This document shows positions 1,702 to 31,479 of a DNA stretch of 37,111 nt, one piece after another. The position numbers were made by a program, and so were the translations under genes. The DNA is taken from NCBI GenBank assembly GCA_013297675.1, contig JAAFHZ010000033.1, positions 1 through 37,111 on the forward strand, given 5' to 3'. This DNA comes from Synechococcales cyanobacterium bin59.metabat.ball.084. GTDB lineage: Bacteria; Cyanobacteriota; Cyanobacteriia; Cyanobacteriales; Chamaesiphonaceae. Positions within the stretch are counted from its first letter, which is position 1. Every line of letters starts with the position of its first letter. The notes below the pieces were generated by a model. It ran no database searches, was not told the origin of the DNA, and worked only from the letters and a program-made list of their open reading frames with translations.

Positions 1702-1706
1702 GATAG

Positions 1707-2021
1707 CTAGATCACACTATCTATTCCCCGAGTCTGGACTAGATGTAGTAACTTGAGAGCTGTTCCGGTAGGACGCTTTTGGCCAATTTCCCACTTTTGG
1801 ACAGTTGATAGACTGGTGTTTAAAATTGCCGCAAACACTGCCTGACTAACATTTGATTCTTCACGAATTTGTTTTATTTTCTCAGGTTCTAAAGATTCGA
1901 TCGGCATTAGACACAATCGATCGAACTCACGAAGTGTAACTTGATCTATTACCCCCGCATTGTGTAAACCTTTGGCCGTATCATGGACGGCCTCAAGAAT
2001 CGCTGATTTTTTCTTCCGCAT
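1707..2021 (-). CDS. XRE-family HTH antitoxin (HigA/NadS-like)
   Basis: DNA-binding antitoxin of a type II toxin-antitoxin pair, 104 residues. The C-terminal half carries a helix-turn-helix: SQAVFAAILNTSLSTVQKWE followed by GQKRPTG, the usual recognition-helix layout of COG2944-type antitoxins that bind their own operator. The N-terminal half, rich in charged residues (MRKKKSAILEAV), probably contacts the toxin. It lies downstream of the toxin gene and overlaps its end by 29 bp, so the order is toxin first, as in higBA-type modules. The cassette sits between hsdR and hsdM on the opposite strand, and a 21-bp palindrome at its promoter is the likely binding site. Family is clear; the exact subfamily is inference. 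Confidence 0.87.
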   Translation of the reverse strand: MRKKKSAILEAVHDTAKGLHNAGVIDQVTLREFDRLCLMPIESLEPEKIKQIREESNVSQAVFAAILNTSLSTVQKWEIGQKRPTGTALKLLHLVQTRGIDSVI

Positions 2022-2388
2022 TACAGTCTACCTCTATTAATTCTTTGTCTTGTGTGGCTAAGGCCAAAGCTTCTGGAGTTAGCAATAACAATTCTGTGGC
2101 CAGTTTTTTTAGGGCTTCTGATTCATTTTTATCAATATTGCTGCGCTCATTTTTGGGAAAGCCAAAGACAAAAAACCATTTTTCGCCTTGATTGGTGGCA
2201 ATCAAAGTGCGAAAGCCGCCGCGTTTTCCCTGGCCGGGTCGGGCAATGCGCTTTTTAAACAATCCGCTGCCTAAGTCAGCATCGTAAAGTCCTGTAGCCA
2301 TTTCACTCACCGCAATGCAAAGACTAAGGTTGTCTAATCCTTGCTTGTGTGCCCAACGATTGAACCAGCGAGTCTTGTAGATTATCAT
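1993..2388 (-). CDS. RelE/HigB-like toxin (COG4737-type)
   Basis: Probable mRNA-interferase-type toxin, 131 residues from the ATG at 2388 (MIIYKTRWFNRWAHK). I prefer this start because a GAGGGG Shine-Dalgarno match lies a few bases upstream and the family begins with this strand-helix pattern; the frame is open up to 2463 but that would read through the operator. The core has the family's KKRIARPGQGKRGGFRTLIA strand-loop segment followed by WFFVFGFPKNERSNI, typical of the COG4737 branch of RelE toxins. The gene overlaps the HTH antitoxin by 29 bp, giving translational coupling. It points away from hsdM, and its promoter region is shared with the hsdM upstream region. Activity is inferred from family. 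Confidence 0.87.
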   Translation of the reverse strand: MIIYKTRWFNRWAHKQGLDNLSLCIAVSEMATGLYDADLGSGLFKKRIARPGQGKRGGFRTLIATNQGEKWFFVFGFPKNERSNIDKNESEALKKLATELLLLTPEALALATQDKELIEVDCNAEEKISDS

Positions 2389-2407
2389 GCCATCCCCTCT
2401 CGATCCT

Positions 2408-2437
2408 TTTATAGCACTTAGTGCTATAAGACGGCAA
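2408..2437 (-). promoter_or_regulatory. Predicted sigma70-type promoter of the toxin-antitoxin operon
   Basis: On the minus strand TTGCCG (2437-2432) is followed after 18 bp by TATAAA (2413-2408), with a TG two bases before it (extended -10). It ends about 20 bp before the toxin start codon. The 21-bp palindrome fills almost the whole spacer and part of the -10, so a bound antitoxin would block RNA polymerase. Predicted from sequence only. Confidence 0.55.
2409..2429. promoter_or_regulatory. 21-bp perfect palindrome, probable antitoxin operator
   Basis: Half-sites TTATAGCACT and AGTGCTATAA are exact reverse complements around a single central T. The palindrome lies between the toxin start (2388) and the hsdM start (2576), over the predicted toxin promoter. 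HTH antitoxins of this kind commonly bind such a site to autoregulate. That the HTH protein binds here is inference. Confidence 0.65.
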
Positions 2438-2487
2438 GCTTGAAACAACAACCAAACTTGCAAATGTGGATTATACTGGCTAAATTA

Positions 2488-2504
2488 CGTCCGCGCTGCG
2501 GACG
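2488..2504. repeat. Short GC-rich hairpin upstream of hsdM
   Basis: A 7-bp stem CGTCCGC / GCGGACG with a 3-base loop (GCT) stands in AT-rich sequence between the TA operator and hsdM. There is no T-run after it, so it is not a clear terminator. It could be a small dispersed repeat or a 5'-leader structure of the hsdM transcript. Confidence 0.4.
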
Positions 2505-2575
2505 CAATTGCAAAGAGTGGCATAGAAAGGATAGAGTAAGGTGCTTTAACCGCTTTCTCTGCCCCGGTGATTTCT

Positions 2576-4036
2576 ATGAGTGCTACCCACGATATTGTTG
2601 CGAAGCTGTGGAACCTTTGCAATATTTTGAAAGATGATGGGGTGACTTATCACCAGTATGTGACGGAGTTGACTTATTTGCTGTTTTTGAAGATGGCCAA
2701 GGAGACTAGTACTGAGGATCAGATTCCGGCGGGCTATCGATGGGATGATTTGGAAAGGCTGGCGGCACCCGATCGATTAGAGCAATATAAAAAACTATTA
2801 CTGCATTTGGGTGGTGCCGGTTCTGGGTTGGTGCAAGAGATTTTTGCTAATGCTACTTCGTTTATTCGCAAGCCAGCGACGCTTTCGACTTTGGTGACAG
2901 AAATTGAGAAGTTAGATTGGTATAGTGCGCGGCAGGAGGGGCTGGGGGATTTGTATGAGGGGTTGTTGGAGAAGAATGCTAATGAAAAGAAGTCGGGGGC
3001 GGGGCAATATTTTACGCCGCGCCCACTCATTGACAGTATGGTGGCGGTGATGAAGCCGCAGTTGGGGGATGTGATTCATGATCCGGCGGCGGGGACTGGG
3101 GGCTTTTTGATTGCTGCCGATCGGTATATTCGTAGTCACGACAATCCTGATAATTGGACAGAAAAGGAGCAGCGCCAGTATCATAACGATACTTTCTATG
3201 GGATGGAGCATGTGCAAGATACTCACCGTCTGGCGCTGATGAATTTGATGCTGCATGGGTTAGATTCTGATCCGCAGGGGGCGGGGATTAGGTATGGGGA
3301 TACTTTGGGTGGTGATGGGGAGGCGTTGGGTCAAATTGGGGCGACGTTGATGTTGACTAATCCGCCGTTTGGCACCAAAAAGGGTGGTGGGTTGCCGACG
3401 CGGAATGATTTTACGTTTCCGACGAGTAATAAGCAGTTTTGTTTTTTGCAGCATATTTATCGGGGGCTGAAGCCCGGTGGGCGGGCGGCGGTGGTGTTGC
3501 CAGATAATGTGTTGTTTGAGGGGAATGTGGGGCGACAGATTCGGGCTGATTTGATGGATAAGTGCAATTTGCATACTATTTTACGGTTGCCGACGGGGAT
3601 TTTTTATGCGCAGGGGGTGAAGACGAATGTGTTGTTTTTTACGCGGGGTGAAAAGGAGAAGGGGAATACAAAAGAGGTTTGGGTGTACGATTTGCGGGCG
3701 AATATGCCGCAGTTTGGCAAGCGGACGCAGTTGATGCGGCAGCATTTTGCGGAGTTTGAGGTGGCTTTTGGGGGTGATCCGTTGGGTAAGGCGGCGGCTT
3801 TGAAGAAGCGGGTGGATACGGGGGAGGAGGGGCGGTTTCGGTGTTTTGGGCGAGATTATATCGCGGAGCGCAATGATAATTTGGATCTTGCTTGGTTGCG
3901 GGATGATAGTGACGATAGTGCTGAGGAGTTGCCGGAACCGGCGGCTTTGGCGCAGATGGCGATGGTGGAGTTGGAGGCTGTGATGGCGGAGCTTCAGGGG
4001 ATTTTGGCGGAGTTGGGTGAGGAGGTAGAAGTATGA
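2576..4036 (+). CDS. hsdM: Type I DNA methyltransferase subunit M (HsdM)
   Basis: N6-adenine methyltransferase subunit of the type I complex; it also forms the modification-only methylase with HsdS. It has 486 residues from ATG 2576 (MSATHDIVAKLW), with GGTGA six bases upstream; a GTG at 2567 is in frame but less likely. The N-terminal HsdM_N helical bundle covers about residues 5-125. The N6_Mtase domain follows, with SAM motif I DPAAGTGGF near residue 170 and catalytic motif IV NPPF near residue 263. GAGQYFTPRPL just before motif I is also typical. The gene ends in an ATGA overlap with hsdS. Its upstream region is shared with the divergent TA promoter, so the two units may affect each other. 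Full family length, no damage seen. Confidence 0.97.
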   Translation: MSATHDIVAKLWNLCNILKDDGVTYHQYVTELTYLLFLKMAKETSTEDQIPAGYRWDDLERLAAPDRLEQYKKLLLHLGGAGSGLVQEIFANATSFIRKPATLSTLVTEIEKLDWYSARQEGLGDLYEGLLEKNANEKKSGAGQYFTPRPLIDSMVAVMKPQLGDVIHDPAAGTGGFLIAADRYIRSHDNPDNWTEKEQRQYHNDTFYGMEHVQDTHRLALMNLMLHGLDSDPQGAGIRYGDTLGGDGEALGQIGATLMLTNPPFGTKKGGGLPTRNDFTFPTSNKQFCFLQHIYRGLKPGGRAAVVLPDNVLFEGNVGRQIRADLMDKCNLHTILRLPTGIFYAQGVKTNVLFFTRGEKEKGNTKEVWVYDLRANMPQFGKRTQLMRQHFAEFEVAFGGDPLGKAAALKKRVDTGEEGRFRCFGRDYIAERNDNLDLAWLRDDSDDSAEELPEPAALAQMAMVELEAVMAELQGILAELGEEVEV

Positions 4037-5607
4037 ATGAAATTCCAATGGGTTGGAGTAATACTGATTTAAGTAGTTTAATCGTTCGCATTATGGGAGG
4101 TGGGACACCATCAAAATCGAATGTAGTGTTTTTTCAAGGGAAGATCCCATTTATGACGGTAAAAGATATGAAGGAAAGATTTCCTTTGGACACTATTGAC
4201 CATATTACGGAAGAAGCAGTTGAAAACAGTTCAACTATTGTTGTACCTGCTGATACGCTTATCGTTGCGACAAGAATGTCTTTAGGTAAAATTGTAAGGC
4301 CACGATTTGAAACAGCTATTAATCAAGATTTAAAGGCTTTGTTTTTTGCTGAGGGAATCGACAAAACTTTTGTTGAGCATTGGTGGCGTTCTCGCAGTAA
4401 GCTTATCCAGAATTTAGGGACTGGAACAACAGTCAAAGGAATTCGATTAGAAGATATTCACTCACTCTCGATTGATATTCCTCCCCTCAATGAACAGAAA
4501 CGGATTGCGGATAAGCTCGATCGGCTTCTGGCCAAAGTTGATAATTGCCGGGAAAGACTCGATCGAATCCCCCTCATCCTGAGTAGATTTCGCAGTTCGA
4601 TTTTAACCCAAGCATTTTCAGGAGAACTCACAAGAATTTTTCAGAATAGTAATAAGTATTCTGAAGAGTGGAGTTATGAACGTGCAGTAGATGTTTGTGA
4701 GAAAGTACAAAGTGGAGGAACTCCCAGGGAAGGATTTATTGATAATCCAGGAATTCCGTTTTTGAAAGTTTATAATATTGTCAATCAGAAGGTTGATTTC
4801 GAGTATCGCCCTCAATTCATTCTTGAGAAAATTAATAGTTCTTCAATGTCAAAATCTCAAGCAAAGCCTGGAGATGTTCTTATGAATATTGTTGGTCCAC
4901 CACTGGGCAAAGTAGCGATAGTACCAAATTCATATCCTGAATGGAACATTAACCAAGCAATAACTTTATTTAGACCAAGCTCTAGGATAACAACAGGGTG
5001 GCTATATTACTTGTTGTGCAGCGGAATAAACGTTAGCTCTATAATCAATGAAACAAGGGGATCGGCTGGACAATCTAACATCTCATTATCACAGTGTCGT
5101 GATTTCGTCTTTCCTGTACCGTCTGTTCAAGAACAAGATGAAATTGTTCACCAAATTGAAAAGCTCTTTAATTTTGCTGATCGCTTAGAATCCCGTTATC
5201 AAACAGCTCGTGCTCAAATCGATAAACTCACCCCCGCCCTCCTCGACAAAGCCTTCAAAGGCGAACTAGTCCCCCAAGACCCCACCGACGAACCCGCATC
5301 AGTCCTGCTCGCCAAAATCCAACAAGCCCGCGCCAACCCAGAAAACCAAACCTCCAAACAGCCCAAAACCCCCCGTAAACCCTCCATCCCCAAAGTCAAA
5401 ATGCTTACCCGCAGCACCATCCAACCCTCACACCTCGCCGACATCTTAAAAAACAGCGGCTCCCTCACCGCCGAAGCTCTCTGGAACGCCTCTAAACTGT
5501 CGATCGATGACTTTTACGATCAGCTTAAAGCCGAAGAACTACAAGAACTCCTCAAAGAAGTACAAGGAGAACTATCAACCTCCATCCGACTACTGGAGGC
5601 TATATGA
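4033..5607 (+). CDS. hsdS: Type I specificity subunit S (HsdS) with a C-terminal extension
   Basis: DNA-recognition subunit, 524 residues. Two target-recognition domains are visible: TRD1 about residues 1-150, ending at the conserved IPPLNEQKRIADKLDRLLAK, and TRD2 about 210-355, ending at VPSVQEQDEIVHQIEKLF. Each is followed by a helical spacer; the spacers end in the matching motifs LTQAFSGEL and LLDKAFKGEL. After the second spacer, where many HsdS proteins end, there is a Pro/Lys-rich linker (about 430-450) and a compact segment (about 455-524) with LTAEALWNASKLSIDDFYDQ. That tail may form an extra small domain. Both TRDs are AT-rich, while the last third shifts to C-rich codons like the next gene. 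Overlaps hsdM and the ATPase gene by ATGA. The target sequence cannot be predicted. Confidence 0.94.
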   Translation: MNEIPMGWSNTDLSSLIVRIMGGGTPSKSNVVFFQGKIPFMTVKDMKERFPLDTIDHITEEAVENSSTIVVPADTLIVATRMSLGKIVRPRFETAINQDLKALFFAEGIDKTFVEHWWRSRSKLIQNLGTGTTVKGIRLEDIHSLSIDIPPLNEQKRIADKLDRLLAKVDNCRERLDRIPLILSRFRSSILTQAFSGELTRIFQNSNKYSEEWSYERAVDVCEKVQSGGTPREGFIDNPGIPFLKVYNIVNQKVDFEYRPQFILEKINSSSMSKSQAKPGDVLMNIVGPPLGKVAIVPNSYPEWNINQAITLFRPSSRITTGWLYYLLCSGINVSSIINETRGSAGQSNISLSQCRDFVFPVPSVQEQDEIVHQIEKLFNFADRLESRYQTARAQIDKLTPALLDKAFKGELVPQDPTDEPASVLLAKIQQARANPENQTSKQPKTPRKPSIPKVKMLTRSTIQPSHLADILKNSGSLTAEALWNASKLSIDDFYDQLKAEELQELLKEVQGELSTSIRLLEAI

Positions 5608-7178
5608 GACTAGATAAACTACATATTCCTAACTACAAAGACAACAGCCTGCGTAACTTTACTATCGACTTCGATGAAGGCCGATCGACCACCGTATTAA
5701 TTGGGCGCAACGGCTCCGGCAAATCTAACCTCATCGAAGCGATCGTCGAAATATTTCGGGACTTAGAACTCCACAACCCACCCGCCTTTGCATACCAACT
5801 ACGCTACATTTGCCGCGATCGAGTCGTCGAAATTACCGCCGACCCAGCCAAAAAAAGCAATCGCCTCGAAGTCAAAATCGACCAAAAAACCATCAGTCAA
5901 ACCGAATTTCAACGCAACCTCGCCGAATACCTGCCCAACTTCATTTTTGCCTACTACTCCGGCTGGAGCAGCCGCCTCGAAAAACACTTCGATGAACCCA
6001 CCCGCCGCTACTACAAAAATATTTTAAACAGCAGAAACACCGAAATGCCCATCCGGCGGATGTTCTTTTGCCGCAAAGAATATAGTCAGCTTGTCCTGCT
6101 GGCCTTCTTCTTAGCCAACTCCGACACCGCCAACCATTTCTTAGAAAAATACCTGGGTATTCGCTGCTTCGACTCCGCCTTATTTGTGCTCAAAACCCCC
6201 TGGTGGCGCGGCAGCGGTAAACCCAACAAAACCCAAATAGACGAAGGCGATCCGCGCTTTTGGTATGCCCGAGGTGCATTCAAAACCTTCCTCGATCGCC
6301 TGTGGAGCCATTCCTTTGCCCCCGTTCGCAACACCGAATCGATCGAAAGAGACGTGCGCGGTAAAACCGAAAGCACCGAGCGGCTTTATTTATTCATCAA
6401 AAACCAAGCCGAACTAGCCAAACTCAAAACTGCCGAAGAAGATGCCAAAACACTCTTTGGCTACCTCGAAAGCTTATTTCTCTGCGACCTCATGGACGAA
6501 GTGCGAGTTACCGTCGAACGCACCGACGGCACCAAAGTTAAATTCACCCAACTCAGCGAAGGTGAACAACAGCTTCTTACCGTCCTCGGCCTGATGCTAT
6601 TCACCCAAGACGACGAATCGCTGTACCTACTCGATGAACCCGATACCCACCTCAACCCCGTCTGGACTTACGACTACCTCAAGTTACTCCAAGACAACAT
6701 TCAGGCCGAAAAAGGCCAGTTAATCATCGCCACCCATAACCCCCTGATGATTGGCAGCTTGTACAAAAACCAAGTACGCATTATCACTCAACAACCCGCA
6801 GGCACTTTTGCTGAAGAACCAGAATATGACCCGATCGGCATTGGCATTGAAGGTTTACTAAAATCTGAATTATATGGATTGCGATCGACCCTCGCCCCAG
6901 AAGTTTTAGACAAACTCGATCGACACTATGAACTACTTGGGAAACTCGATAAGACTCCAGAAGAAGAATTAACGTTAATTAAGCTAGCTAACGAACTAAA
7001 TTCTTTACATGTATCTCGCACTCATCCCAACCCCTATTTTGAACATTTTGCTAACGCTATGGCCAATCGTATACCTACCGATGAAACTGTTCTAACCAAG
7101 GAACAGATCGAATCTCAAACCAAAATAGCTGATGAAATATTAGCTGAAATTCTGGCAGAAGAGGCTAATCAACCATGA
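5604..7178 (+). CDS. ABC-like AAA ATPase, PtuA-like, coupled to hsdS
   Basis: Cytoplasmic SMC/ABC-type ATPase of 524 residues. Walker A GRNGSGKSN is at 34-42, an ABC signature-like LSEGEQQ near 317, Walker B LYLLDEPDTHLNP near 340 and an H-loop IIATHNP near 376. The insert between Walker A and the signature is long, as in the AAA_15/AAA_21 (OLD/PtuA) group. No TOPRIM nuclease domain is seen, so it is not OLD. It starts inside the hsdS stop codon and its own stop overlaps the HNH gene start, a layout that implies a shared transcript and probably a complex. The pairing with an HNH protein is that of Septu PtuA/PtuB, where the ATPase senses infection and the HNH cuts nucleic acid. C-rich codons in the first two thirds contrast with hsdM. 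PtuA identity is inference from architecture. Confidence 0.82.
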   Translation: MRLDKLHIPNYKDNSLRNFTIDFDEGRSTTVLIGRNGSGKSNLIEAIVEIFRDLELHNPPAFAYQLRYICRDRVVEITADPAKKSNRLEVKIDQKTISQTEFQRNLAEYLPNFIFAYYSGWSSRLEKHFDEPTRRYYKNILNSRNTEMPIRRMFFCRKEYSQLVLLAFFLANSDTANHFLEKYLGIRCFDSALFVLKTPWWRGSGKPNKTQIDEGDPRFWYARGAFKTFLDRLWSHSFAPVRNTESIERDVRGKTESTERLYLFIKNQAELAKLKTAEEDAKTLFGYLESLFLCDLMDEVRVTVERTDGTKVKFTQLSEGEQQLLTVLGLMLFTQDDESLYLLDEPDTHLNPVWTYDYLKLLQDNIQAEKGQLIIATHNPLMIGSLYKNQVRIITQQPAGTFAEEPEYDPIGIGIEGLLKSELYGLRSTLAPEVLDKLDRHYELLGKLDKTPEEELTLIKLANELNSLHVSRTHPNPYFEHFANAMANRIPTDETVLTKEQIESQTKIADEILAEILAEEANQP

Positions 7179-8005
7179 GATATATCCAATTAGAAAAACC
7201 CGCCCCAGGTTCAAAACACTATGCAGATTTTCAAAAATGGGAGGCTAAAGCTAGCAAAATTACGGCAGAACTACATAACGCCCCAGATATGGCAACCCGC
7301 AAAGCAATCATCGATAAAAATCAACATCTGTGGGGTGAGCTAAAAGATTGGCTCTTGTCGCTGTCAGATCAAAAATGCTGGTTCTCAGAAGCCAAAGACT
7401 GTTTTAGCCATTGGGATGTAGAACATTTTCGCCCCAAAAAATCTGCAAAAGATCAAGATGGTAACGAATACGATGGATATTGGTGGCTGGCCTTCGATTG
7501 GCAAAATTTTCGGATCTGCGGCAACGCCGGTAATCGCAAAAAAGGCACATATTTTCCTTTACAGTCAGAAGTAAATCGCGTTGGTACACCCACGGCTGAT
7601 CTACGGTCAGAAAATCCCCTGCTACTAGATCCTATCGATCCAGAAGATCCAGCTCTACTTTTCTTTGATTCTACGGGTAGAGCGATACCGGCTCCTGGTG
7701 TTACCAGTGACTGGGATAAAAAGCGAGTAGAGCAATCCATTAAACGTTGTAATCTTGATTTTCATCCTTTAGTAGAAAAGCGCAGAATGGTATGGAATCA
7801 ATGCTCGCAACACATTGAACAATATCGCCAAGAAATCAAAAGGTTTGATGATAGCAATGGTAATAACTTAATTGCCAAGCAGATGCTCAAAGAAAAAGCC
7901 AAGGCTATTCGTGAAATGATTAAAACTAATCAGGAGTTATCATCAGTAGCCCGAGCTTGCGTAATCAGTTCTGGCGATTCCCGAGTAAGAAATTTGTTGT
8001 CTTAA
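7175..8005 (+). CDS. HNH endonuclease-like protein, PtuB/TIGR02646-like
   Basis: 276 residues, start overlapping the ATPase stop (ATGA). The nuclease core is DVEHFRPKK (81-89), then WLAFDWQNF (104-112) and YFPL (126-129). This layout matches the PtuB/TIGR02646 HNH family, in which EHFRPK supplies catalytic His and WxNL/CxxCN the second half. The usual CxxC pairs are altered here: the first is CWFS (C68) and the second is CGNAGN (C115), so two of the four expected zinc ligands are missing. The remaining ~145 residues are helical and rich in Lys/Glu. Probable effector of the ATPase in an anti-phage module attached to the type I RM operon. Whether it still binds zinc or cuts DNA is open. Confidence is high for the HNH fold and moderate for the role. 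Confidence 0.8.
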   Translation: MRYIQLEKPAPGSKHYADFQKWEAKASKITAELHNAPDMATRKAIIDKNQHLWGELKDWLLSLSDQKCWFSEAKDCFSHWDVEHFRPKKSAKDQDGNEYDGYWWLAFDWQNFRICGNAGNRKKGTYFPLQSEVNRVGTPTADLRSENPLLLDPIDPEDPALLFFDSTGRAIPAPGVTSDWDKKRVEQSIKRCNLDFHPLVEKRRMVWNQCSQHIEQYRQEIKRFDDSNGNNLIAKQMLKEKAKAIREMIKTNQELSSVARACVISSGDSRVRNLLS

Positions 8006-22865: not shown

Positions 22866-23615
22866 TTATAGTATCAAATGGATGCTTTCAACAAGTACTT
22901 CAATAAAATCAACTGCATCACTGACAAGTACCTCGTCAATATTCCACCGATTTCCAATGTTAAAAGTTGGATTTATATCAGCTTCATGAGCAATTTTATT
23001 TCTCCGATCAACAATCGAGTCAAGCTGCTGCTTAATATCTTTAACAGGTCTAGCCATTTTGATAGCGACTTCATCCCACAGTTTCTTATTTGAGATGTAT
23101 CTAATTGCCTCAGCGATTTTTTCCGGTTGCTGAAAACTTTGGTATCCTAAACGATCTCTGATTTCACTCTCTAACCAAGCAGTATTATTTAGCTTATTTT
23201 GAATGCTACTCGATATTGTAGGAATTAAGGCTGAAATCATGTGAGATTGCTGAAGAAAATCATATCCTTGAGCTTGTTGAAGTTCAGCTTCCAGCCAAGA
23301 GGCAATATCAATTGCTGTTAGTCGATCCTGACGTGCGCCACCTAATGAAACTTGAAAACGGGAGAATGCTGATTGAGTTGTATTTGCAGAAGGTAATGGT
23401 TCTGGGCGTTGCCCTCGATGGATCTCCAACATTCCTAATGTCACAACCTCATGAACATAGTAGTCTAATGCGCTGACAGATAGAACCAGAGCCGCACGCA
23501 ACATATCTGATACATCAAGTGCGCTGGTAGACTGAGCTTTTACAGAATTATGAAGTGAAATTAGGTCTCGAACACGACTAATGCTGATGCGAAATTGATC
23601 AAGCGCTGACTGCAT
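22866..23615 (-). CDS. RiboL-PSP-HEPN-like ribonuclease protein, partner of ParA-like ATPase
   Basis: 249 residues from ATG 23615. A GTG at 23633 is possible, but both starts overlap the end of the ParA-like gene (17 or 35 bp). The HEPN catalytic motif R-x4-H occurs as RRNKIAHEAD (Arg 205, His 210). Two more helical hallmarks are AALVLSVSALDYYVHEVVTL near the N-terminus and the long helical middle with KLWDEVAIKMARPVKDIKQQ. HEPN proteins are metal-independent RNases and frequent toxins of abortive infection systems, and the RiboL-PSP type is a common branch. Its overlap with an ATPase gene suggests that the ATPase controls it. AT-rich, next to a defence island. The RNase role is inferred from the motif. 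Confidence 0.8.
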   Translation of the reverse strand: MQSALDQFRISISRVRDLISLHNSVKAQSTSALDVSDMLRAALVLSVSALDYYVHEVVTLGMLEIHRGQRPEPLPSANTTQSAFSRFQVSLGGARQDRLTAIDIASWLEAELQQAQGYDFLQQSHMISALIPTISSSIQNKLNNTAWLESEIRDRLGYQSFQQPEKIAEAIRYISNKKLWDEVAIKMARPVKDIKQQLDSIVDRRNKIAHEADINPTFNIGNRWNIDEVLVSDAVDFIEVLVESIHLIL

Positions 23616-24669
23616 AAGCGTGGCTCTCAGCACTCAATACAATAATTTTATCTGCTAAATCCGAAAAAGTTTTCTTAAGTTCCTCTTGCTTATTTTTAGT
23701 GATTTCTAGAATAACTCCCGATTGCTTCAACTGCTGGTTCGTTAATGCATAAACTGGAGTTTGATGTTGTTGGGATATGGCAATTAGGCTGTTGAAGTCA
23801 GGAATTTTTGTCAAGCACAAACTACCGCTCATTCCTTGCTCCTGATAAGCACTATCCAACAGCATCATGTCACTATTTTTTAGATTAGGAATTAGTTTGG
23901 AAATGACCGCCTCTTCAATTTTTCTTATCCATGTTTGAAAAGCAGCAGTCTCTTTACTATTTTTGATACGATAATTTTGAATAATAATCCCTAAAAAACG
24001 CGGGTTAGAGTTGGGAAAAGGATAATTGGCTTCTTTGAGAATTTGCAGTGAATTTGCTGATTTAGCCCAAGAGCGCCATTTTGGCAGAACTTTAGCTAGA
24101 GAATCAATCGCCATTACGGAGAAAAAATCAGCAGTAGTTGGAACTAGGAAAAAGTCACTAATCATCAATATGTTTTGGTTGATTGAGCCTAAGCTAGGAC
24201 TCATATCAATCAAAATATAGTCTGCGTTAAGCTTAACTGCGGTTTTTTCTAGCAAATCATTGATAGAACCTGGTAAGTTTTTGAGTGCTTGAATTGAACC
24301 ACTTAGTTCTTGTGCAATACCTAGCGTTACTTCATACTCAGCAAAACCAATATGACCAGGTAGCAAAAATAAATTATCTTGACCCTTTACCGGAATACAA
24401 TTAATTGCTTCAATGGCTTTTGGCTGTGACTCGAATGCAGGAGCTAATCCGGCCTTTATGTTTGAAGCTGCGTTGTAGATTTCTTGAATTCTATCTTCGT
24501 CATTCTCACTTTGTTCTCCTAAAACCATACCCGTTAGATTACATTGAGGGTCACTATCTACAAGAATTACTCTCTTTCCTTTTGAAGCGAGCATCCAACC
24601 TAAGTTGAAAGTAGTCGTGGTCTTACTAACCCCACCTTTGTGATTGAACAATGCGATTTTTTTAACCAT
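23599..24669 (-). CDS. ParA-like (AAA_31/SIMIBI) ATPase upstream of HEPN gene
   Basis: 356 residues from ATG 24669 (MVKKIALFNHKGGVSKTTTT); a TTG at 24678 is less likely. Deviant Walker A HKGGVSKTTTTFNLG has Ser where most ParA proteins have Gly. Also visible are VDSDPQCNLTG (Walker A' region), DYILIDMSPSLGSINQNILM (Walker B) and VPTTADFFSVMAIDSLAKVL. It is longer than chromosomal ParA/Soj (about 255), with a ~100-residue C-terminal part. No ParB or centromere-like repeat is adjacent, so plasmid partition is unlikely; the overlapping downstream gene is the HEPN protein. An imperfect palindrome ACTCGAATT/AATTGAGT at 24705-24723 lies 36 bp upstream. Candidate regulator or sensor of a two-gene toxin system; role inferred. 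Confidence 0.83.
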   Translation of the reverse strand: MVKKIALFNHKGGVSKTTTTFNLGWMLASKGKRVILVDSDPQCNLTGMVLGEQSENDEDRIQEIYNAASNIKAGLAPAFESQPKAIEAINCIPVKGQDNLFLLPGHIGFAEYEVTLGIAQELSGSIQALKNLPGSINDLLEKTAVKLNADYILIDMSPSLGSINQNILMISDFFLVPTTADFFSVMAIDSLAKVLPKWRSWAKSANSLQILKEANYPFPNSNPRFLGIIIQNYRIKNSKETAAFQTWIRKIEEAVISKLIPNLKNSDMMLLDSAYQEQGMSGSLCLTKIPDFNSLIAISQQHQTPVYALTNQQLKQSGVILEITKNKQEELKKTFSDLADKIIVLSAESHAYAVSA

Positions 24670-24704
24670 TGAGATCAAGCCTTTTTGTGAATATTGTATT
24701 GGTC

Positions 24705-24850: not shown

Positions 24851-25274
24851 TGATCGCACCCCAACCTCACCGCCCGAAAAAGTTAAATTGTGAAGGGATT
24901 ATAGAAAAAATGGCTTTTTGTGGGGATCTCAGGCAAAATAGTGCCCAGAGGATATTCAATCAGTAGAGTAGCCATCATGCAGCCAATCCGCACCTTCAAC
25001 GTATCACCATCCCTCCCAGCCCAGCTAGCGCCCCTGCAAAAACTAGCCTACAACCTTTACTGGGACTGGAATATTGAGATCAAAGATCTCTTTCGTCGCC
25101 TCGATCGAGACCTCTGGGAAACCACCCGACACAACCCAGTCGCCACGATCGCCCAAGTCAGCCAAACCCGCTTGCAAGAAGCCGCCAACGACGACGGCTT
25201 CTTGGCGCATATGGAACGCGCCGCCGCAGCCCTCGCCGACTACCAGCAAAGCCGCGACTGGTACAAAAAGCACC
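24851..25274 (+). repeat. Upstream copy of the glgP 5'-end direct repeat
   Basis: This stretch (upstream leader plus the first ~99 codons of glgP) repeats at 31056-31479, offset 6205 bp. From 24877 to 25274 I count 12 mismatches and no gaps in 398 bp. Similarity fades through 24851-24876 and is absent upstream of that, and it stops abruptly after CACC at 25274. It marks the left edge of the 25275-31055 island. Confidence 0.93.
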
Positions 25275-25309
25275 TGAAGAATGATAAATTCAGTCATAAT
25301 AATAGTTGA
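24977..25309 (+). pseudogene. Truncated glgP (DUF3417 domain only)
   Basis: Begins at the ATG equivalent to that of intact glgP (MQPIRTFNVSPSLPAQLAPL) and follows it to DWYKKH, then runs into unrelated sequence (LKNDKFSHNNS) and stops at 25309. Only the N-terminal DUF3417 domain remains, with no catalytic or PLP-binding part. Its leader and presumed promoter are intact, so it may still be transcribed. The stop is 5 bp from the end of the convergent restriction endonuclease gene. Confidence 0.92.
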
Positions 25310-25314
25310 GTTAT

Positions 25315-26055
25315 TCAATCAAGCCTTGCTGATGTTGCTGCTATGTGCCCAGCTAATGTGCTCACAAAGGGCTTTAATCCAGTCATTGTAGACATCTCGG
25401 AAAATTCACCAGTTTGATAAGCTGTCCGGGGAGAAGCAATCAAACAGGCACTTGTGTAAAGCTGTTCTTGTACTAGCCGCTGACACAGTACGTCGTAGCG
25501 TTTAAGGTACGAGGCACTTTGAAACTCTGTAAAAATGGGGAAGTGTGGAGAATTATCCCTAACAGCAGAACGTGATTCAGGTGCATCCTCAACTAACATT
25601 AACCATCCCACAAATGGTCGAGATTGTTTTCCAAATGCTCCCTCTCTGTAGGCTATGCAAAAATCATGCGCAATGCCAATGGCTTCTTCTGTCCGATTAT
25701 TAAAATTATTGCCAAACGATGGACCAACTTGGCTTTTTAACTCGATGGCTATGATTAGTTCTCCTTGGTGAGTCACTAACAAATCCCAAAGCTTGGTCGG
25801 TCGAAAATATCCAGGAAGTGTCAACACCGATCGGCTTTGGTGAATTTGAGCATCGGCTAATCCATTAGCCCGCACAATGTCGAGCATTAAAGCCAAAAAG
25901 CCATCCATATTTTTACCGGCTGTCACTCCAGCCCGTTCACCTTGGTCAGCTTTGCCCGACTCAATCTGTTTTTGTCTGGCTGCATCGCGGTTGCCCCAAA
26001 ATGCCTTGATTGCTTCATGGGCTTTTTGTTCATAATTCACCAAATCAAGAGCCAT
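25315..26055 (-). CDS. Type II restriction endonuclease, XhoI/PaeR7I family
   Basis: 246 residues, full length for PaeR7I-type enzymes, which cut CTCGAG. The core is [20 protein letters not shown] then [20 protein letters not shown], the PD-(D/E)XK site with Asp in KLWDLLV and E-x-K in IELKSQ, followed by RTEEAIG. The N-terminus ([18 protein letters not shown]) is also typical. The ATG is 2 bp after the methyltransferase stop (TAA-TA-ATG), so the protective methylase is translated first. I found no CTCGAG anywhere in this window by eye. Specificity is inferred from the family and needs experiment. Confidence 0.92.
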
Positions 26056-26057
26056 TA

Positions 26058-27839
26058 TTATCCATTATCTCCAAGAATAAATTGTTCTTTGTCATTTAAT
26101 CCATATAGCTTGAATGTTGCACGGTTACAAGCCAGTAGGTCTCTTTTTATAGCTGCATCTGCAAGCTCCTCCCGGAGTATTTGTGGTACATCAATCCACT
26201 GTGGAATACGAATTCGGCGTAGATATTGAGCTTGAAACCGCAGAAAACCTCCCTGCATTTGAGTTGAATAAGTTGCGATAAAAAGTCTTGTGACGGCAGA
26301 CAACAGAACAGCCTGTAGAGATCTTAGCTCCCATTCATCACTAGTAACATAATATAAATTATGGTGTGGATAAAGTGTGCCATTTTCATAAACAATATGT
26401 GCTTCCCCTTTAATGTCTGGGATTAACAACTTTGGTGTTTTGGCGAGTGATGGTGTAATTCTATCAATTGTGCGATACCAATTTTCAGGAGATTTTTTGG
26501 CACAGTGACGATTCTTGATGACCTCTTTTCTTTCATTTAGATAACTATGAAGACGAGGATAATCACTAAGATCAACCAAACCGCCTTCATCAGCGAAAGG
26601 ATTGATTACTCCCTGGCCAAGCCACTTTACTTCTCCTGAGGCAATATCCTTAGTTGTAACCATTGCCAGTTTTCGATCGGCTTCAACGTCAAGCTGCTCA
26701 AATTTGCCAATAAATGCCTTGTCAGCACCAGTGGCTACGCCAATACCTACCTTACAACCAGTTTCTTCTAGGCTGGGAAATTGCTGTTCCAATCGTCTGA
26801 TCAGCATCATTTGATCTGCCGACTCTAGTAGCCATGGTTCTGAACCCTGGACAACCTTGGCTAGTTCTCGGACAGACTCTGCTGTTTTTGGTAATGTTTT
26901 TACTCGTAGTGATGTGGCTAATTTAGTCAATGAGGCTTGATCGATCACCGGGCGATAGGCAATTCTGGTTGCACTTGGTGTTTCGCGACTAATTACTGTA
27001 ATTGCTGGATAGGCAATGACATCAGACTGGAAAGCCGGAGTATTTACCATATCAACATAAATTTTTAGGTGGAATTGCTCGGCAACCAGGCCACGTAGCG
27101 GCCCCCCATAACGATTTTTCATCCAGCGATCGGCGCAGATAAAAGCTAAGCTGCCACCTTTGGCAAGTAGCATCAATGACCTTTCGATAAAGGGAATATA
27201 GAGATCTGCTCGATCGTATATGGTCTGATAGCGGCGGCGATATTCTATTAAAAGTGATGGAGGAATTAGCTCTTGGCGAACATAGGGCGGGTTGCCAACA
27301 ACAAAATCAAATTGTGATTCTAATGGTGCCAATAAAAAATCTGCTTGGGAAAGCCATCGATCGGCTAAATCTGTGGCTATCTTGGAGGCGATGTTTTCGC
27401 TGATGAGTAGGGCGATCACGGCTTCCCGAGTGCTGTGGAATGTTTCGCTGTGCAATTCTACAGCGCGGATGGCATTGCTTAGTTCATCGATGGTCTGGCC
27501 TGTTTTTTTTGTGGTTTTCCAGGCGGTTAACAATCTACTGACGATCGGTAATAAGAAGTCGCCTCTGCCGAATGATGGTTCCAAAATTCGTTGTTGATGC
27601 AGTGGCTGGTCTGTGGTGTATCCGGCTAGGTCAAGGATAAAATCGACGACTTCGGTGCGGGTAAAGATGGCTCCGCGAGATTCGGTGCCTATGGATGTGG
27701 ACAATTTTTCAATGGCGGTAGTGATTCCGGGGGATTGAGGAGTATCTAAATCAAAGTACTGATCGAAGCTGAGCTGCTTAGATACCAAGTTTTTTTTCTT
27801 ACCATCTTCTTTACTGTAAAGGCGTTGGCGAACTGCCAT
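26058..27839 (-). CDS. N6-adenine DNA methyltransferase (Eco57I/XhoI-type)
   Basis: 593 residues. It protects host DNA by methylating adenine, presumably in CTCGAG together with the adjacent XhoI-like enzyme. SAM motif I is [16 protein letters not shown] (85-100); catalytic motif IV is NPPYVRQE (183-190); the following [20 protein letters not shown] is motif V/VI-like. A C-terminal TaqI-like target-recognition region spans about 340-560, with [12 protein letters not shown] and [12 protein letters not shown]. It belongs with gamma-class M.PaeR7I-type enzymes. First gene of the RM operon; the ATG at 27839 has ~150 bp of non-coding DNA upstream. No damage seen. Confidence 0.93.
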
Positions 27840-27990
27840 AGGTTTGACTCGGTTATGACCTAAGTTATTTTACCAGTTCTCGAAGTTCGTTAATGTTGAT
27901 TGTGGTTTACCACATTCGATCTCTAGAGATAACGATTGAATTTGTCTGATTGGATTAGGGGTAAAATTCTAGATGCCATCTTCTATGATT

Positions 27991-28254
27991 TCAACCTGAA
28001 ATGTCATATTTTTGCTGCATTTCTTTCATAAAATCATCGATCGGGCGAGTTTGGCCGGAGTTTAATTCCTCAAAGCCTTGCTGAATGCCCTCAATCGTCT
28101 CTAGCTGATCTATTAGTTGGCGTAGTTTGGCAGAGTCGATCGAGCCAGGAGTAAGAAAGGTTACGAGAACTTGAGATTGATCTACAATACCTTGTGGTAG
28201 TTCGGTGAAATGAACTTGCCCATCTTGATAAATGCCTTCGATGGTTTTTAGCAT
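27991..28254 (-). CDS. Small antitoxin-like protein
   Basis: 87 residues. The first half, MLKTIEGIYQDGQVHFTELP, is the pattern of cyanobacterial proteins of antitoxin type (a beta-hairpin DNA-binding start). The second half is helical and ends DDFMKEMQQKYDI, like RelB/ParD tails that wrap a toxin. No toxin gene follows: the next minus-strand gene is the XhoI-type methyltransferase 150 bp away. An inverted repeat at 28279-28305 lies just upstream. Orphan antitoxin is the best guess. Confidence 0.6.
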   Translation of the reverse strand: MLKTIEGIYQDGQVHFTELPQGIVDQSQVLVTFLTPGSIDSAKLRQLIDQLETIEGIQQGFEELNSGQTRPIDDFMKEMQQKYDISG

Positions 28255-28278
28255 AGGTTGAGGTTGGGTTAGTGGCCA

Positions 28279-28305
28279 CCTTAATTCTATCAGATAAAAT
28301 TAAGG
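28279..28305. promoter_or_regulatory. Inverted repeat before the antitoxin-like gene
   Basis: CCTTAATT and AATTAAGG, 8-bp perfect arms with an 11-base gap, 25 bp upstream of the start codon at 28254. It is a possible autoregulation operator; AT-rich composition makes chance plausible. Confidence 0.3.
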
Positions 28306-28423
28306 GGCTAGATCTGGAGTTCTGATTGTGCAATATAAACCTCGCATTGACTTAGTTATGGCTGGATTCATTCCACCTCAATCACAAAAATTTGTATGTC
28401 AGTCTTTGCAACTTATTTTATGT

Positions 28424-29530
28424 TCACTTTGGCATATCATTGTCAGCCAATGTCTGTTCAGAATAAATATTTGCTGATGCAATAATTTTTTCTTTGTGAT
28501 CAAAAATATCATCAATGGTAACTATGGGTATTTTCTCTTCTTTCTTGTCTGATGTAAATATACTAATGTATTTTTTACCCCCATTTAAATACAGGCGAGA
28601 AATTGGTTTTCTATTATTGTCATCAAGCAATATACCAAAATATGATTGAGTGTCTCTGTAAAATACTCTGCTCAAATCGACAGTGCCTTTCAAAACAGAT
28701 TTAACTGCATAAAACCCCTCAAGCTCTTCTTGAGTAGTAATGATTTTATTTTCATCAGCATTTTCAGGAATTGCCGCAGACTCCACTTCTGTTTGATTTG
28801 AATTGGCAACGGGTACCTCAATGGATAATGCCGATTTAAGCCGATCATTTAATTTGTCATTGATAAAATGCTGAAATGCTTTAGCAATAATGGGAATGAA
28901 CTGCTCTTTGACTTGTGCTGTTATTCTTCCTGGATAAGCAGTTGCTAGTACGAATTTCACAAATTCATCTGATGGATTTACAAGTTGTTCATTAATGAGG
29001 TTCTTTATTATCTTAGTGTATTTTAACTCACTGGCAGATGATAATACATTGTCAATATTGAATGACATTTTAGTGAATTTCTTCAATTCTCCGAGGACTA
29101 TTTCATCTACATGTGCAACAGAGAACTCTAAGAATGGCTTGTTATCCATTTTATTAGGCTCATCTAAGTCGGTATAAAACTTGTAAATTATTCCATCTGT
29201 CAATACGCCTATTCTTGCCTCAGTAGCGTGAAAATATCTATGCAGTTGTGATTCATTTTGAGCATCAAGTTTGGAATCAACCATTTTGCACTCAACAAGT
29301 ATTGAGATTTTACCACCTACTGATATTGCATAATCGACCTTTTCACCTTTTTTGATACCAATATCAGCAGTGAATTCTGGGATCACTTCTTCTGGATCAA
29401 AAACATCGTAACCGAGCGAACTTATAAATGGCATTATAAAAGCTGACTTAGTAGCTTCTTCTGTTGCAATTAAATTTTTCTGTTTCGCAATTTTAGAAGC
29501 AATCTGATTTAGATGATCGATCAAATCCAT
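28424..29530 (-). CDS. COG2810-like restriction endonuclease-fold protein
   Basis: 368 residues. The N-terminal domain has the type I R-subunit N-domain pattern: a helical start, EEATKSAFIMPFISSLGYDV, FTADIGIKKGEKVDYAI (Asp) and ILVECKMVDS (E-x-K), then RYFHATEARIGVLTDGIIYK. These are the PD-(D/E)XK catalytic elements. No helicase motifs follow, so it is not a true HsdR. The C-terminal ~110 residues (GTVDLSRVFYRDTQSYFGIL, KKYISIFT) look like a separate beta domain often found with COG2810 proteins. Usually labelled type IV restriction or standalone nuclease, common in phages and islands. Substrate unknown. Monocistronic in the glgP-bracketed island. Confidence 0.8.
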   Translation of the reverse strand: MDLIDHLNQIASKIAKQKNLIATEEATKSAFIMPFISSLGYDVFDPEEVIPEFTADIGIKKGEKVDYAISVGGKISILVECKMVDSKLDAQNESQLHRYFHATEARIGVLTDGIIYKFYTDLDEPNKMDNKPFLEFSVAHVDEIVLGELKKFTKMSFNIDNVLSSASELKYTKIIKNLINEQLVNPSDEFVKFVLATAYPGRITAQVKEQFIPIIAKAFQHFINDKLNDRLKSALSIEVPVANSNQTEVESAAIPENADENKIITTQEELEGFYAVKSVLKGTVDLSRVFYRDTQSYFGILLDDNNRKPISRLYLNGGKKYISIFTSDKKEEKIPIVTIDDIFDHKEKIIASANIYSEQTLADNDMPK

Positions 29531-29674
29531 CTGTATACCTCTTGATTTTTATAAATACAATTAATTTTGTTGGAGGATGAATTCTGTAGCTTAATCTTAG
29601 TGGAGAGTTTATACTTAAGAAGATCTTAAAATATCCCATTAAATGTTTAATCATTGCATATATTGCTTCGATAG

Positions 29675-30409
29675 TTAGAGCTTTAAAACAATTTCATCAA
29701 ACCTCAATAGATAATAGCCAGTCCACTCTTTAGAGTAACTCCACCAACCATTTAATGCAAAAATGTATTCTCTTGGTAGGCTTCCTTGTGGAGATTGAAG
29801 GTCATAATTGAAAGAATCATATGGAGATAACCATCTACTTCCAACACGCCACTGAACATATTGGCCAAAAGTATTTTCACTAATTGTCTGTATGGATATG
29901 TTGTCAGATGACTTACAACCTAGCATACGCCATATTTTACTTTGAACACTAAATCCAAATCGACCATTACTATATTTCACCCAGAGTTGATCTATAACCA
30001 ATAAAGCTTGGGGTGAAATAGCCTTTGCATCATTCGATAATAACCATCCTTCCTTCTCTCGACCGGCTAATTTAAGTAAGAGCCTTTTAGTTTCATGATC
30101 AGCATCTTTTAATTTGCCCAATTCAAGAAGTTGCTCTAACTTTTCGCAATTAATAGGAATTTTGATAGGTTGCACTGGCTCAGGCTTTACTGCACTTTTA
30201 GTAACTTGAGGCTGGTAACATTTTAAAAATTCGTAGGCGGCATTGATTTTCTTAAGCTTTTCCTCAGCCTTTTTCTGTAGTTTCAGATTATCAGAAAAAC
30301 GATCTGGGTGCCAAACCTTAGCTAAATCTTTGTAAGCCTGTTTAATATCATCTTGTGATGCCCCTACTTCGATTTCAAGAATCTGATAGTGTATTTGTGG
30401 CTCTGTCAT
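29675..30409 (-). CDS. DnaJ-GUN4 fusion protein
   Basis: 244 residues. A J-domain fills 1-65 with HPD at 34-36 (KVWHPDRFSD), the motif that stimulates Hsp70 ATPase. A linker with Pro/Lys (70-85) leads to a GUN4 domain (about 88-215): EKLEQLLELGKLKDADHETK, LLVIDQLWVKYSNGRFGFSV and SKIW, then FGQYVQWRVGSRWL and SPQGSLP. GUN4 binds porphyrins and activates Mg-chelatase, but GUN4 domains also occur fused to other modules in cyanobacteria. Here the tetrapyrrole pathway is not near, and the gene follows a coiled-coil gene by 14 bp inside a defence island. It may recruit Hsp70 to a ligand-sensing system. Role is inference; the domain calls are strong. Confidence 0.85.
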   Translation of the reverse strand: MTEPQIHYQILEIEVGASQDDIKQAYKDLAKVWHPDRFSDNLKLQKKAEEKLKKINAAYEFLKCYQPQVTKSAVKPEPVQPIKIPINCEKLEQLLELGKLKDADHETKRLLLKLAGREKEGWLLSNDAKAISPQALLVIDQLWVKYSNGRFGFSVQSKIWRMLGCKSSDNISIQTISENTFGQYVQWRVGSRWLSPYDSFNYDLQSPQGSLPREYIFALNGWWSYSKEWTGYYLLRFDEIVLKL

Positions 30410-30423
30410 AATAGTTTCCTGGA

Positions 30424-30819
30424 CTACGATTTTTCAATAATAAATTTTTCAAGTTGTAGAACTGCCTGCTCAATTGCATTAATAATACCATCAATGGTAT
30501 TATTACGTTGTTCTAATGGTGCAAGCTCTTGTGCTAAAGTCCGACGATCCACATCCCGACTAATTGTTTGAACTGTGCGTACTAGCCGACCAAAGCCACC
30601 ACCTCCAATAAATTTAGAACCTTTTTGACGCACACTATTTGTGTACTCTGCCCGAATTAATTTTTGTTGTTGAGAAATTTCCCTTTTAGCTAAGGCATAT
30701 TCTCTTTTCTTCAACTTCAATTCTTTGATTGCGATTTTTGCTTCTGCCACTGACTTAGCTGAAACATTCAGATCTCCATTATTGCTGATATTCACAAAGC
30801 TATTTTGATTGGGAAGCAT
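30424..30819 (-). CDS. Coiled-coil protein upstream of DnaJ-GUN4 gene
   Basis: 131 residues from ATG 30819 (MLPNQNSFVNISNNGDLNVS); an ATG at 30825 adds two residues. The N-terminus resembles a short capping segment, then a charged helix (AKIAIKELKLKKREYALAKR and EISQQQKLIRAEYTNSVRQK), a glycine turn GGGGFGRL, and a second helix (LEQRNNTIDGIINAIEQAVL). It is probably a two-helix hairpin coiled coil. No family recognised. It is 14 bp upstream of the DnaJ-GUN4 gene on the same strand, so they are likely co-expressed and may interact. Confidence 0.6.
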   Translation of the reverse strand: MLPNQNSFVNISNNGDLNVSAKSVAEAKIAIKELKLKKREYALAKREISQQQKLIRAEYTNSVRQKGSKFIGGGGFGRLVRTVQTISRDVDRRTLAQELAPLEQRNNTIDGIINAIEQAVLQLEKFIIEKS

Positions 30820-31055
30820 ATTCAATACTCCGGACAGATTTACAACTATTTCGCTGGAACCCGCACTCCACTGTTACTGAACAGGTAAACATAATGTCTT
30901 AGGTTGAATGTACGAGTAGACAAAACTTAGTCTATATTCCATTATGCCCAACATAGTATAAGTCTTAACATTCCGTTGCATAGTTTATTGAAAGAACCTT
31001 TTTTGACAGCAAAGAATCAAATTGTTCCACACTTAAATGCAGCTTTTGCCATCAC
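30820..31055. other. Intergenic stretch at right edge of the island
   Basis: No coding frame, tRNA or integrase remnant is visible. It is AT-rich and should hold the promoter for the coiled-coil/DnaJ-GUN4 pair. The duplicated glgP leader begins at 31056, so the island boundary falls at the end of this stretch. Nothing else is recognised. Confidence 0.5.
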
Positions 31056-31479
31056 CGATCGCCCCCCAACTGCACTTACCAAAAAAGTTAAATTGTGAAG
31101 GGATTATAGAAAAAATGGCTTTTTGCGCGGATCTCAGGCAAAATAGTGCCCAGAGGATATTCATTGAGTAGAGTAGCCACCATGCAGCCAATCCGCACCT
31201 TCAACGTATCACCATCCCTCCCAGCCCAGCTAGCGCCCCTGCAAAAACTAGCCTACAACCTTTACTGGGACTGGAATATTGAGATCAAAGATCTCTTTCG
31301 TCGCCTCGATCGAGACCTCTGGGAAACCACCCGACACAACCCAGTCGCCATGATCGCCCAAGTCAGCCAAACCCGCCTGCAAGAAGCCGCCAACGACGAC
31401 GGCTTCTTGGCGCACATGGAACGCGCCACCGCCGCCCTCACCGACTACCAGCAAAGCCGCGACTGGTACAAAAAACACC
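31056..31479 (+). repeat. Downstream copy of the glgP 5'-end direct repeat
   Basis: Partner of 24851-25274. It includes the leader GTTAAATTGTGAAGGGATTA, the intact glgP start and its first ~99 codons. Coding differences from the other copy are few (for instance AMI for ATI, ATAALT for AAAALA), so both were under the same reading frame until recently. Confidence 0.93.

Follow-up and report, generated by a model that had tools for sequence, protein, structure and literature searches.

Canonical GUN4 of cyanobacteria, the Ycf53-like cofactor of Mg-chelatase, has an N-terminal helical domain. GUN4 domains are also carried by kinases, caspases, TIR proteins and trypsin-type proteins, a group reportedly described by Davison in 2005. 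As far as the available text of the sources goes, the LxNxLR motif of GUN4 proper holds Asn211, which is tied to bilin binding, and Arg214, which is tied to porphyrin binding (PMC10156173, PMC8967248); changes of the equivalent Arg211 in Arabidopsis GUN4 lower the affinity for Mg-porphyrin 7.5 and 12.2 fold (PMC8967248). The accessible part of a published survey states that no GUN4 paralogue keeps Asn211 and proposes that bilin binding was lost (PMC10156173). The combination of GUN4 with kinases, caspases, trypsin and TIR domains is already in print (PMC7159879, PMC5756287, PMC1262709), a GUN4/Ser-Thr kinase gene appears in a table for one phage-resistant substrain (PMC10811720), and in an eLife paper of 2020 the GUN4 domains of conflict-system proteins were proposed to be tetrapyrrole sensors (PMC7159879). 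For J-domain proteins, the dedicated DnaK1/DnaJ3 pair of Nostoc is a precedent for specialisation (PMC9239167, in the text available). Within the accessible parts of the mostly open-access literature on GUN4 domains, J-domain proteins and cyanobacteria (including PMC7159879, PMC10811720, PMC5756287, PMC1262709, PMC4398503 and PMC9992760) we found no description of a J domain fused to GUN4, and a literature search combining GUN4, anti-phage and cyanobacteria gave no match.

The J-domain/GUN4 fusion and its orthologues

One ORF of 244 amino acids on the minus strand (29675..30409 of the window, the whole stretch of 37,111 nucleotides that was analysed) contains two Pfam domains, both over their curated cut-offs: DnaJ (PF00226, 56.1 bits against 27.8, residues 7-63, 30221..30391) and GUN4 (PF05419, 108.7 bits against 29.2, residues 87-214, 29768..30151). 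The first-pass annotation, which had described a J domain with intact HPD joined to a GUN4 domain, was correct on this point. HPD (residues 34-36) and QAY are invariant among the seven intact family members that were aligned (7/7). No further Pfam domain was found in the sequence, and on reading it contains neither CxxCxGxG repeats nor a G/F region. The last 30 residues (215-244, YIFALNGWW..., 29675..29767) form a conserved C-terminal segment. Independent assemblies carry the same fusion, so neither chance nor an assembly error accounts for the join.

In J-only relatives from other cyanobacteria a similar J cassette at the N-terminus (YYxxLxLxPGA..QAY+..WHPDR..LQQKA) is followed by pentapeptide repeats (L059, L061, L062) or TPR-WD40 (L052, L058; TPR from sequence reading). 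These class C proteins share a loose linker with the fusion and end in pentapeptide or WD40 repeats, whereas the fusion ends in GUN4. Since a similar cassette precedes other C-terminal parts elsewhere, we assign the fusion from its sequence to the class C J proteins, with a GUN4-like module; it looks like one more C-terminal exchange within this series. In the genome of the window the J domain has 11 matches, of which 10 exceed the cut-off, and HSP70 has eight, including three that are nearly full length. No recognised dnaK gene was seen beside the fusion at any member locus. The Hsp70 recruitment suggested by the first-pass annotation is something we infer from the intact HPD-bearing J domain, which is under selection, and from the presence of HSP70 genes in the genome. 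At the Chlorogloeopsis locus the fusion gene is convergent with a 1368-aa ORF (L067:8909-13015, minus strand). By reading, this ORF contains an Hsp70/actin-like GIDLGTT motif, but neither Pfam at 0.01 nor PADLOC at 1e-5 gave a match for it.

Comparison of the window with Chlorogloeopsis gave dN/dS values of 0.05 (J), 0.10 (GUN4) and 0.88 (linker), and comparison with PMM_0082 gave 0.10, 0.06 and 0.29 respectively; these values are rough, since dS exceeds 1 in many comparisons, and several with undefined dS were set aside. The C-terminal segment showed 0.05-0.15 in unsaturated comparisons. The J and GUN4 domains are under purifying selection and the linker is freer; the low values in both domains therefore identify both halves of the fusion as working parts.

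Seven intact members of the family were found, including that of the window, and one more is cut at a contig end. The others are from Chlorogloeopsis fritschii PCC 6912 (L067), Chamaesiphon sp. CAN_BIN30 (L068, the same as G392), uncultured PMM_0082 (L069), Leptolyngbyaceae SM1_4_3 (L070), FACHB-471 (L072) and G388; the cut copy is from Chamaesiphon polymorphus CCALA 037 (L071, the same as G389). The window genome belongs to the same family as Chamaesiphon. In a FastTree of 147 GUN4 domains, in which many forks are weak, the seven members and the cut copy form one group of eight rows with local support of 98. The J-GUN4 fusion is thus one orthologous family, rare and patchy in its spread.

Across the phylum, 63 of 386 genomes match the fusion at 1e-20 and, among the matches listed, only that of the window spans both domains; a match in G167 covers residues 13-212, yet HPD and a J domain are both missing from its ORF. 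Three matches among 40 relatives are full length or nearly so (the window's own, G392 and G388), and a fourth, in G389, covers residues 97-244 near a contig end. A profile of six members matched 34 of 388 genomes of the order at 1e-35; the top four (own, G392, G388, G389) scored 2.4e-75 or better and the next 8.1e-41, at positions 70-223. In a collection of named genomes 403 stretches fitted a sequence pattern and 302 encode a relative, with six family members among the best 80. A J domain was present in 7 of the 136 distinct GUN4 ORFs at the loci fetched in the first round, and 97 later loci, which include many repeats and loci of glgP, J or HSP70 genes, yielded 30 GUN4 ORFs and no further family member. 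Candidates for other J-GUN4 architectures (G167, G255, G215, G572, G509, G609) match beyond GUN4, and none has a J domain in its ORF. Because the sampling is weighted towards sequences close to the query, independent fusions may exist elsewhere. Among the genomes covered and the matches listed, the survey of such fusions and their neighbours suggested by the first-pass annotation gave a single rare family, with defence genes for company at some loci only.

The GUN4-like domain and the LxNxLR motif

An AlphaFold model from 83 aligned rows (mean pLDDT 83.2, pTM 0.65; an earlier model from six rows, pLDDT 49.5, was set aside) matched GUN4 structures in 14 of 14 PDB hits at E<=0.001, followed by J domains with weak E-values. 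Its GUN4 core superposes on the Chlamydomonas and Arabidopsis proteins with TMt of 0.67-0.76; the whole-chain TM-score to cyanobacterial GUN4 is only ∼ 0.5, as expected because the N-terminal domain differs. The fusion shares the core fold and the S-N/L-G-R/N-F-G core with the canonical cofactor (1y6i, 1z3x, 4xkb, 7e2t), but the J domain takes the place of the N-terminal part and LxNxLR is absent.

The alignment to the PDB entries stops at Pro208 of the Synechocystis protein, which is Pro212 here. The next residues are R-E-Y-I-F-A, of which R, Y, I and F are invariant in the seven members, and the conserved C-terminal segment lies at and behind this place. Because the family has R-[EA]-Y-I-F-[AT] where LxNxLR would be, Asn211 and Arg214 are gone: by alignment, from which the loss is judged, Asn211 corresponds to the invariant Tyr215 and Arg214 to Ala in six of the seven members and Thr in one. 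The porphyrin contact Phe196 of Synechocystis aligns with the invariant Phe200, and Trp192 with a variable position adjoining an aromatic one. LxNxLR was found in 1 of 147 GUN4 domains, a sample with few canonical GUN4s. The single case is the canonical GUN4 of the window genome itself (G000:C72), so the motif test was able to detect it. The comparison with Synechocystis GUN4 proposed by the first-pass annotation thus speaks against its idea that the GUN4 part may sense a tetrapyrrole, and we rejected this as the main reading for want of the motif. Sensing of this kind by the fusion is unlikely, since its GUN4-like module lacks LxNxLR; the domain may have a different tetrapyrrole pocket.

Outside the family, the closest relatives of the GUN4 part (41-49% identical in the ten best matches) are GUN4 paralogues, many of them on kinases and other multidomain proteins. 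The 53 GUN4 proteins with neither a J domain nor a simple kinase motif include 18 with Pkinase, eight with caspase, seven with TIR_2 and five with Trypsin_2 domains; kinase labels in the tree and ORF set come from a crude motif. In the set that was fetched, the kinase, caspase, TIR and trypsin proteins likewise lack LxNxLR. They differ from the fusion in the partner of GUN4, which in the fusion is a co-chaperone domain and no catalytic domain.

The small upstream gene and the genomic surroundings

A small gene of 131 amino acids (30424..30819, minus strand) ends 14 bp before the ATG of the fusion, the spacing given by the first-pass annotation. The ORF list starts it at a TTG (30825); we prefer the ATG at 30819, since its two close homologues (L068, L064) begin with MLP. 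It matches no Pfam or NCBIfam family above cut-off. The coiled coil ascribed to it earlier could not be confirmed: hydrophobic periodicity of 3.5-3.6 is no stronger than in shuffled sequences (P 0.26 for the whole, 0.70 and 0.13 for two segments). Against two close homologues dN/dS is 0.17 and 0.17. It may be a distant relative of a 130-aa cyanobacterial family (L166-L170), with which hhalign pairs it at 86% probability and 26% identity; that family has a VGLDxFGKxKxAGxxRAxTR core and no Pfam match at 0.01 in the one member tested.

The small gene matches three of 386 genomes (own, G289 and weakly G153) and two of the 40 relatives (own and G392); a four-row profile that includes the weak row matches eight of 386. 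In CAN_BIN30 (L068) it precedes the fusion by 18 bp, and in Chlorogloeopsis (L067) it is a pseudogene remnant with an internal loss and a frame change next to an intact fusion. G289 (L064) has it without the fusion, before a truncated XisH gene. No trace was detected at E<1 upstream of the fusion in G388, L069 and L070, and one 18-residue match in L072 (E 0.067) is read as chance. In C. polymorphus (L071) the place lies off the contig and the genome has no match. Being present, decayed, alone or absent depending on the locus, the small gene is an optional partner. The constant two-gene unit of a toxin-antitoxin system was not seen, since the fusion stands without the small gene at four intact loci (G388, L069, L070, L072).

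Both genes lie in a 5.8-kb block (25275-31056) between two copies of the 5' end of glgP, a partial one at the left border (24852..25274, plus strand) and the start of the intact gene at the right (31057..31479, plus strand), which form a 423-bp direct repeat with 95.5% identity. Outside the pair, the block contains an XhoI-type restriction enzyme with its methyltransferase (25315..27839, minus strand; PF04555, 325 bits; PADLOC REase_II and MTase_II) and an orphan HSDR_N nuclease-like protein (28424..29530, minus strand; PF04313; phrog_4225 endonuclease, E 1.3e-124). G+C is 0.33-0.37 in the right half of the block versus 0.50-0.56 in glgP. The block may have entered with target duplication or by homologous recombination. 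The same-genus genome G386 has neither a full-length fusion nor the small gene at the thresholds used, and no empty site could be defined because it shares only glgP with the window there. Farther left, positions 1-8005 hold type I restriction genes (R, cut by the contig edge to its C-terminal part, M and S) and then a Septu PtuA/PtuB pair, on the plus strand; two small minus-strand genes separate R from M. At 22866-24678 (minus strand) a gene for a ParA-like ATPase overlaps that for a HEPN (RiboL-PSP) protein, possibly a toxin-like pair.

At other loci the fusion is flanked by rhodanese and accB/efp genes (L070, L072), or is found by fabD and purL (L069) or by genes for small exported proteins (L071, G388); apart from the L070 rhodanese, these names come from reading of the ORFs. 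Neighbours were scanned as ORFs of at least 80 aa (65 in L162) picked greedily within ∼ 6 kb; the scans covered 33 of 34 and 45 of 46 of these, short of a single small ORF at L068 and another at L071. Around the five fusions where the small gene was not found (L069, L070, L071, L072, G388), none of the 45 scanned neighbours matches PADLOC at 1e-5. The 33 neighbours of L067, L068 and L162 are touched by 26 PADLOC families; among the 19 scanned singly, hits to Fic and Uma2 are credible, DUF499 and PDC-S17 were also hit, and those of neighbours read from their sequences as CRP-type, ABC, response-regulator, PAPS-reductase-like and PrmA-like proteins look like housekeeping resemblance. In CAN_BIN30 the small gene is preceded, at a distance of 88 bp, by a SoFic-like Fic gene of the same strand, and in Chlorogloeopsis a TacA-GNAT pair and a Uma2 (PDC-S03) gene lie upstream of the fusion. 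Where the small gene or its remnant is present, the surroundings thus seem more mobile, but a sample of three cannot carry a claim. The 'defence island' of the first-pass annotation describes this window well, with its restriction systems, orphan HSDR_N protein and more distant Septu pair, but not the loci of most other members. The case named there as counter-evidence, a fusion spread broadly through core loci with no defence link, applies in part: the surroundings are often housekeeping, but the fusion is rare.

The PADLOC model PD-T4-6 (PDLC04062) matches the fusion with 100.7 bits, positions 280-429 of 450 aligning with residues 55-218. The defence kinase shares only this C-terminal part with the fusion, in which no Pkinase match was found at E<=1. 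Since the part from ∼ 280 to 429 matches GUN4 domains at ∼ 100 bits, in 29675-30409 as well as in L212:3985-6435, the model may flag kinase-less GUN4 proteins as defence. According to the available text of one study, the PD-T4-6 gene is present in all its S. thermophilus genomes and has a very mild effect (PMC11514479). The fusion has no match in 50,697 phage records. Of 72,556 plasmid records 34 match it, and in none does the match extend over 80% of the query; the 15 matches listed are cyanobacterial and annotated mostly as GUN4 proteins or kinases. Two viral contigs match it, in the J domain only, and no relative of the small gene was found in the viral contigs.

Proposed role and alternatives

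Taken with its architecture, orthology, selection, motif loss and patchy spread, the fusion is best read as a rare accessory gene for a specialised co-chaperone, not a pigment sensor. We favour, with modest confidence, a class C J-domain co-chaperone whose J domain brings DnaK to a client held by the GUN4-like module. The N-terminal J domain would dock on host DnaK through HPD and stimulate it, and the GUN4-like domain would bind proteins, either to choose the client or to position the chaperone. The gene probably arose by domain exchange, when a cyanobacterial J cassette was joined to one of the many paralogous GUN4 domains found on kinases, caspases, TIR and trypsin domains. The small gene would be an optional partner: some lineages have it in the position of an operon mate, while in others it was lost or has decayed. 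J-GUN4 is a new domain architecture in which a chaperone arm joins the known partners of GUN4-like domains and is kept under selection with GUN4 as a unit. Together with the motif count, it makes tetrapyrrole sensing improbable for GUN4-like domains outside chlorophyll synthesis, contrary to the eLife 2020 proposal.

A porphyrin or bilin on GUN4 could instead switch Hsp70 recruitment and so couple proteostasis to the pigment state. The sensor proposal (PMC7159879) and the known tetrapyrrole-binding fold would fit this, as would the retained Phe200 and the plant chaperones that, in the available text, act on the pigment-synthesis enzymes GUN4 (cpSRP43) and POR (the J-domain protein CPP1) (PMC9992760). 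However, the invariant Tyr215 and the Ala or Thr in place of Arg214, the absence of the fusion from the LxNxLR count, the accessible survey data on Asn211 (PMC10156173) and the affinities of the Arabidopsis Arg211 changes (PMC8967248) make such gating quite unlikely. We regard as rather unlikely an anti-phage or toxin-antitoxin-like pair in which J-GUN4 senses or disarms phage factors via Hsp70. The adjoining XhoI-type and HSDR_N genes, the PD-T4-6 score, the Fic, TacA-GNAT and Uma2 genes at the two further loci that have the small gene or what is left of it, the truncated XisH beside the lone small gene, the low G+C and the patchy spread that includes Chlorogloeopsis are consistent with it, but the 45 neighbours free of PADLOC matches, the decay of the small gene beside an intact fusion in Chlorogloeopsis, the C-terminal confinement of the PD-T4-6 match with the mild effect of that gene in S. 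thermophilus (PMC11514479, available text), and the phage and viral searches argue against it. Outside the window the neighbour scans did not support a defence pair, which we therefore set aside; a defence role is not supported in general, and a role of the fusion in phage defence is possible.

A signalling adaptor is also unlikely. In this reading the GUN4-like domains that kinases, caspases and TIR proteins carry would bind one another, and J-GUN4 would be a chaperone arm for loading or dismantling the assemblies. It draws on the domain company of the 53 proteins counted above, on the same company in the accessible part of the eLife paper (PMC7159879) and on a TIR-GUN4-HipA protein in the window genome, but no conserved linkage was seen and potential partners are few, since this genome has only four GUN4 places. 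Extending the co-chaperone reading, GUN4-like domains that no longer bind tetrapyrroles might be a cyanobacterial interaction module common to kinases, caspases, TIR effectors and J-GUN4, through which Hsp70 assembles, holds inactive or dismantles GUN4-bearing effectors, with the small protein regulating in mobile contexts; we consider this very unlikely.

Another contig of the window genome (G000:C177) has a second J gene neighbouring a GUN4 gene. We rejected this pair as a functional link, because homologues of its J gene occur in 59 of the 60 genomes searched and it therefore looks core. The same contig encodes an 816-aa protein (L212:3985-6435, plus strand) composed of TIR, GUN4 and the N-terminal and C-terminal domains of HipA, possibly a toxin of new architecture in which effector domains enclose GUN4.
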